A DNA stretch of 64,000 nt from Mugil cephalus (lineage: Eukaryota; Chordata; Actinopteri; Mugiliformes; Mugilidae). Below are positions 29,250-46,560 of this stretch, piece by piece. The notes under the pieces were generated by a model that was not told the origin of the DNA, made no database searches, and worked only from the letters and a program-made list of their open reading frames with translations. The DNA lies in assembly GCF_022458985.1 (NCBI RefSeq), contig NC_061789.1:7606357-7670356 (forward strand). The letters are read 5' to 3'. Made by a program: the position numbers and the translations under genes. Within the stretch, counting starts at the first letter, position 1, and each line of letters starts with the position of its first letter.

Positions 29250-46560
<17,311 letters not shown>

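Follow-up and report, generated by a model that had tools for sequence, protein, structure and literature searches.

Does a fish MYH9 gene carry a cassette exon in loop 1, of the kind known from its paralogues? NM IIA is the motor behind cell migration and cytokinesis. Its loop 1 sits immediately outside the nucleotide pocket; the length and the sequence of the loop both modulate ADP release (PMC13102872). Mammalian work puts loop-1 splicing in IIB, IIC and smooth muscle myosin; in mouse RT-PCR, loop-1 splicing of MYH9 (NMHC IIA) was looked for and was undetected, and the authors of that study could not rule out a rare NM IIA1 form (PMC10480317). In the open-access literature, none of the matches listed describes a loop-1 exon in MYH9. 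A review loosely credits MYH9 and MYH10 variants with loop-1 and loop-2 insertions, the two genes not being separated in the relevant part of its text (PMC7566000). PMC5699865 treats other myosins, and the zebrafish myh9b paper (PMC11708221) has zero words beginning with splic or loop. Public fish gene predictions may already include such an exon.

The window considered here, that is, the whole analysed stretch of 64,000 nucleotides, corresponds to C20:7606357-7670356 in a searched genome of 24 contigs and 635 Mb. It contains the following features of a myosin heavy chain gene, listed in the order of transcription after the gene itself.

29259..46551, minus strand: MYH9-type heavy chain gene; coding matches begin at residue 6 of human MYH9 and extend to the tail
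43065..43157, minus strand: upstream exon, from the P-loop to loop 1 (GESGAGKT...SSHKTKKDQ), donor CAG/GTCGGT
41369..43064, minus strand: loop-1 intron containing the microexon, 1696 nt
42353..42372, minus strand: acceptor and pyrimidine tract of the microexon, TTCTCTCTTCCCATCAACAG
42332..42352, minus strand: microexon NSSVLSH, 21 nt, phase 0 on both sides ("MYH9 A1 exon")
42326..42331, minus strand: microexon donor GTGAGT (CAT/GTGAGT)
41276..41368, minus strand: downstream exon (GELEKQ...NSSRF)
37886..37948, minus strand: candidate loop-2 A2 exon, 63 nt, the sole candidate listed by the scan of the loop-2 intron

The span was probed with the human MYH9 protein, tail included. On the minus strand the exons run collinearly between 46551 and 29259 and end with a MYH9-type tail. 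Over 290 columns of the motor, identity of the window gene to a PDB chain of MYH9 is 90.0%, compared with 86.2% for MYH11 and 84.5% for MYH10. A second gene, L039 on C2, gives 87.2, 82.4 and 80.0%, respectively, in the same comparison. Both genes terminate in RRGDLPF, extended to RRGDLPFNMRR in L039. In a tree without a distant outgroup the two genes form a group with support 98, joined by the PDB MYH9 chain at 96; in a tree rooted with the sarcomeric-type L045 the MYH9 group is unresolved, with supports of 45-47. These trees included no MYH14 chain, and MYH14 chains had the bottom scores among the 20 chains compared. By these sequence comparisons, the window gene and L039 are both MYH9, and the MYH9-type assignment in the preliminary description is upheld by motor identity, by the tree without outgroup and by the tail. 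The same three lines of evidence rule out that the window gene is MYH11, in which the SM-B insert likewise has seven residues.

The preliminary description also reported an in-frame microexon at loop 1, and we confirm it: the exon has 21 nt, a good acceptor, a GTGAGT donor and whole-codon joins. It splits the loop-1 intron into pieces of 712 and 963 nt, is free of stops, and its junctions to ...KKDQ and to GELEKQ fall between codons. Thus, it is a short phase-0 exon of 3n length placed just before GELE and flanked by plausible splice sites. Skipping would give KKDQ/GELEKQ, with a loop 1 of the same length as in human MYH9, and inclusion would add seven residues just outside the nucleotide pocket. 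Acceptors and donors were scored with simple weights derived from vertebrate consensus frequencies; the scores are uncalibrated and serve for ranking only. By these scores the microexon, at 12.2, is the top candidate of its intron. A 51-nt form with an upstream AG and the same donor was rejected at 9.6. In an automatic 36-intron model of the window gene, exon scores equal to or above that of the microexon are seen in 2/35 cases.

The loop-1 intron of L039 has one listed candidate, also of 21 nt, GSAVLSH/GTGAGT, with a score of 16.9. NSSVLSH and GSAVLSH share 5/7 residues; three of the shared codons are synonymous and two are identical, and the exons match at 13/21 bases. A blastn comparison of the two introns gives only matches of 13-24 nt, with E of 0.36 or weaker, one of them covering the 3' end of the microexon and its donor. 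A protein that is kept while the intron is scrambled is the pattern left by a coding exon under selection. Shuffles of the L039 intron produced a 21-nt candidate (score of at least 6) with 5/7 identities in 0/1000 cases. The residues alone are insufficient, because a 5/7 match, NSFSLSH, occurs in the intron of L041, among five other introns searched with no splice-site demand, and is absent from the splice candidates listed for that intron. Taken jointly, position, length, splice sites and residues are sufficient to identify the microexon at the level of sequence. The conservation of the 21 bases that the preliminary description proposed as a check is found in the same genome, in the MYH9 paralogue on C2. 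All conservation comparisons of the microexon were made within one animal genome, that of the window itself.

Very probably, NSSVLSH is encoded by a genuine MYH9 cassette microexon of the SM-B/B1 family, which would be older than the duplication that gave the two MYH9 copies, would probably come from before the MYH9/MYH11 split, and would likely have a modest effect on the motor. Chance could in principle provide a pyrimidine-rich stretch with an AG and a GT suitably spaced, and dinucleotide shuffles of the loop-1 intron do yield a stop-free exon of 3n length (6-60 nt) with the microexon's score or higher in 9/1000 cases, but a 21-nt candidate at that score appears in 0/1000. In the real window, both strands included, the microexon is the sole 21-nt candidate at its score, and one further 3n candidate reaches that level (51 nt, from 10236, minus strand). 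Six paralogue loci, read on both strands (103,410 bases), yield a single 3n candidate at that score, the L039 exon. Since the second MYH9 gene has a like exon in the same intron, chance is hardly credible. It is also quite improbable that the exon is a relic, once functional and now no longer spliced in. The mouse gene, in which RT-PCR gave no loop-1 splice, indicates that a lineage can lack the exon (PMC10480317), but both copies have retained the frame, the two splice sites and 5/7 residues, although elsewhere their introns share short matches only.

The exon may also be real but constitutive; loop 1 of NM IIA would then simply be longer, with nothing regulated. In favor of this explanation, the acceptor (7.2) and the donor (5.1) of the microexon exceed the medians for modelled introns of the gene (4.8 and 3.1, respectively), and the donor of the upstream exon, CAG/GTCGGT, scores 2.0, under the gene median. 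On the other hand, an exon of only 21 nt usually needs help to be included, and skipping restores the mammalian loop exactly. Moreover, alternative splicing governs the loop-1 inserts of MYH10, MYH11 and MYH14 in those species that have been studied (PMC10480317, PMC3938199). We consider constitutive splicing unlikely, and we infer that the microexon is used in mRNA and is spliced alternatively.

The scan behind these scores has visible limits. In L041, a doubtful 15-nt AQNAI outscores SGPLFY; the L040 exon, with a score of 3.6, was missed by the scan and recovered by alignment; and a 48-nt exon proposed in L044 is unvalidated. Run on the loop-2 intron as a positive control, a scan of this kind recovered the known A2 exon.

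A genome search with the two exons flanking the microexon gave 66 matches. We examined one intronless gene and the seven genes in which these exons matched best, and left out the weaker matches, probably sarcomeric myosins. The seven genes are C2/C20 pairs resembling MYH9, MYH10 and MYH11, and L044 on C11. Thus, MYH9, MYH10 and MYH11 have one copy each on C2 and on C20, a layout that would fit a chromosome pair derived from the teleost duplication. Zebrafish has myh9a and myh9b, for which mutants exist; the duplicated MYH9 is attributed to the teleost genome duplication, and a single myh10 is described (PMC11708221). The duplicated MYH9 seen here likewise suggests a teleost genome.

In the MYH11 pair, the loop-1 intron contains a conserved block encoding QQQGGSLAY (L043) or QQAGSQFAY (L040), both followed by a GTGAGT donor. 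With its flanks, QQQGGSLAY aligns best with smooth-muscle chains bearing the SM-B insert. In the MYH10 pair, 30-nt exons encoding PESPKPVKLQ and PESPKAFKLQ lie in a 72-nt block that is 83% identical between the copies. These two exons have a GC donor (GCAAGT) and are located at intron positions 373 in L041 and 1345 in L042 (0-based). L041 also has an 18-nt exon, SGPLFY/GTGAGT, for which no partner was found in L042. The MYH10-pair exons fit the B1 inserts in size (10 and 16 residues; sizes from PMC10480317). The GTGAGT donor follows 5/5 of the named SM-B-type exons as opposed to 4/36 modelled donors of the window gene, although the scan itself favours such donors. Similarity of the inserts across paralogues amounts to a loose pattern only. 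L044, the C11 gene that might be MYH14, is nearer to MYH10 than to solved MYH14 chains and is therefore kept unassigned. Its loop-1 candidates of 48, 39 and 12 nt were not validated, and the scan gave no convincing loop-1 exon there.

Compared with known inserts, the microexon most likely, as judged from sequence, represents MYH9 in the family of loop-1 cassettes of vertebrates and is nearest to SM-B (i7) of MYH11. Like SM-B, it has seven residues (human SM-B is QGPSFAY; PMC13102872) in the same loop, just before GELEKQ, and the MYH11 pair of this genome has exon candidates of the SM-B kind. Unlike it, the microexon belongs to another gene, and the MYH11 exons of this genome have nine residues. 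The two inserts share a loose pattern of a hydrophobic residue, then S/A, then a terminal Y/H. With the insert in place, SM-B-bearing chains come top by a small margin, the best of them scoring 104.0 bits and the best chain that lacks the SM-B insert 102.1. Insert length alone may account for this difference, and seven residues are too few to judge common descent. B1 of MYH10 (10 or 16 residues) resides in the same intron and is conserved in the MYH10 pair of this genome, but the 30-nt exons there are unrelated in sequence and use a GC donor, leaving at best the 18-nt SGPLFY with some likeness to the MYH9 exon; in addition, B1 is described as neuronal in mammals (PMC10480317). C1 of MYH14 (8 residues) is described from the same loop (PMC10480317). 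A2 of MYH9 (63 nt) is a motor-loop cassette exon of the same gene with a candidate in the window; unlike the microexon, it encodes 21 residues in loop 2 and abolishes motor activity (PMC10480317). The preliminary description was right about the position and the type of the exon and about the contrast with mammals, as no loop-1 splice is found in mouse NMHC IIA (PMC10480317), but it left unnamed the closest insert, SM-B of MYH11.

A longer loop 1 in NM IIA would most likely lead to modestly faster ADP release and sliding, or to an altered dependence on light-chain phosphorylation. The seven-residue insert of smooth muscle myosin changes the actin-activated ATPase about two-fold in chicken and rabbit (PMC3938199), and the MYH14 insert raises activity (PMC10480317). 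A kinetic effect is not assured, because human SM-A and SM-B perform alike (PMC3938199) and the 10-residue MYH10 insert raises activity only slightly (PMC10480317).

What is new here is a loop-1 exon candidate in the paralogue reported without one; the kind of exon is already known. Evenly balanced, in our opinion, is the broader scenario in which NM IIA ancestrally had a regulated A1 microexon, related by common descent to SM-B and the second B1 exon, kept in both fish copies and lost in mammals. If this is true, four motors (A0, A1, A2 and A12) could be produced from the window's MYH9 gene. With a conserved loop-1 exon in MYH9, the role of this loop in NM IIA would become testable in vivo, and mammals would seem to have given up a regulatory option that their ancestors possessed.

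The loop-2 intron provides a second cassette exon candidate in the same gene. The mouse A2 insert has the sequence EMQSTQRAYFYRRFPILHLES (PMC10480317), and 14/21 residues of the window candidate are the same. Mouse A2 has a suboptimal 5' splice site (PMC13158602); by the simple weights used here, the donor of the window candidate, GTGAAA, scores 3.2, about the gene median of 3.1. In L039, where the loop-2 intron is about 165 nt long, a scan covering 4 kb found no A2 exon. Thus, the loop-1 exon is present in both MYH9 copies and the loop-2 exon was found in one.

Next to the microexon, at 42205-42322, there is a purine-rich low-complexity tract that is C/U-rich on the transcript. In the preliminary description it was suggested as a possible regulator of the exon. 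A role as a specific, conserved regulator is not supported: over 140 nt downstream of the exon, pyrimidines make up 84% in the window gene and 51% in L039, so the tract is absent beside the sister exon, and the genome has at least 60 other places similar to it, at 70-97% identity. Binding words for RBFOX, QKI, PTBP, CELF, NOVA, MBNL and SRRM4, sought within 200 nt of both exons, showed nothing distinctive in common. Within this distance, two downstream ACTAA words and an upstream GCATG occur at the L039 exon only.

Two further observations concern the myosin genes of this genome. L045 (C21:275000-284900), the intronless gene, encodes, in a single open frame of 1974 aa, a myosin heavy chain of the sarcomeric type, with a motor 51% identical to MYH9 in the columns compared; it is possibly a retrogene with the reading frame retained. 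In the window gene, the intron at 40358-41096 on the minus strand, which follows GANIET, has GTATCCTGT at its 5' end and CCTTAAC near its 3' end, and looks to be of the U12 type. L040, L041, L042 and L043 have TGTATCC after the same codons, and L039 has TGCATCC at the start of this intron, a possible GC variant.
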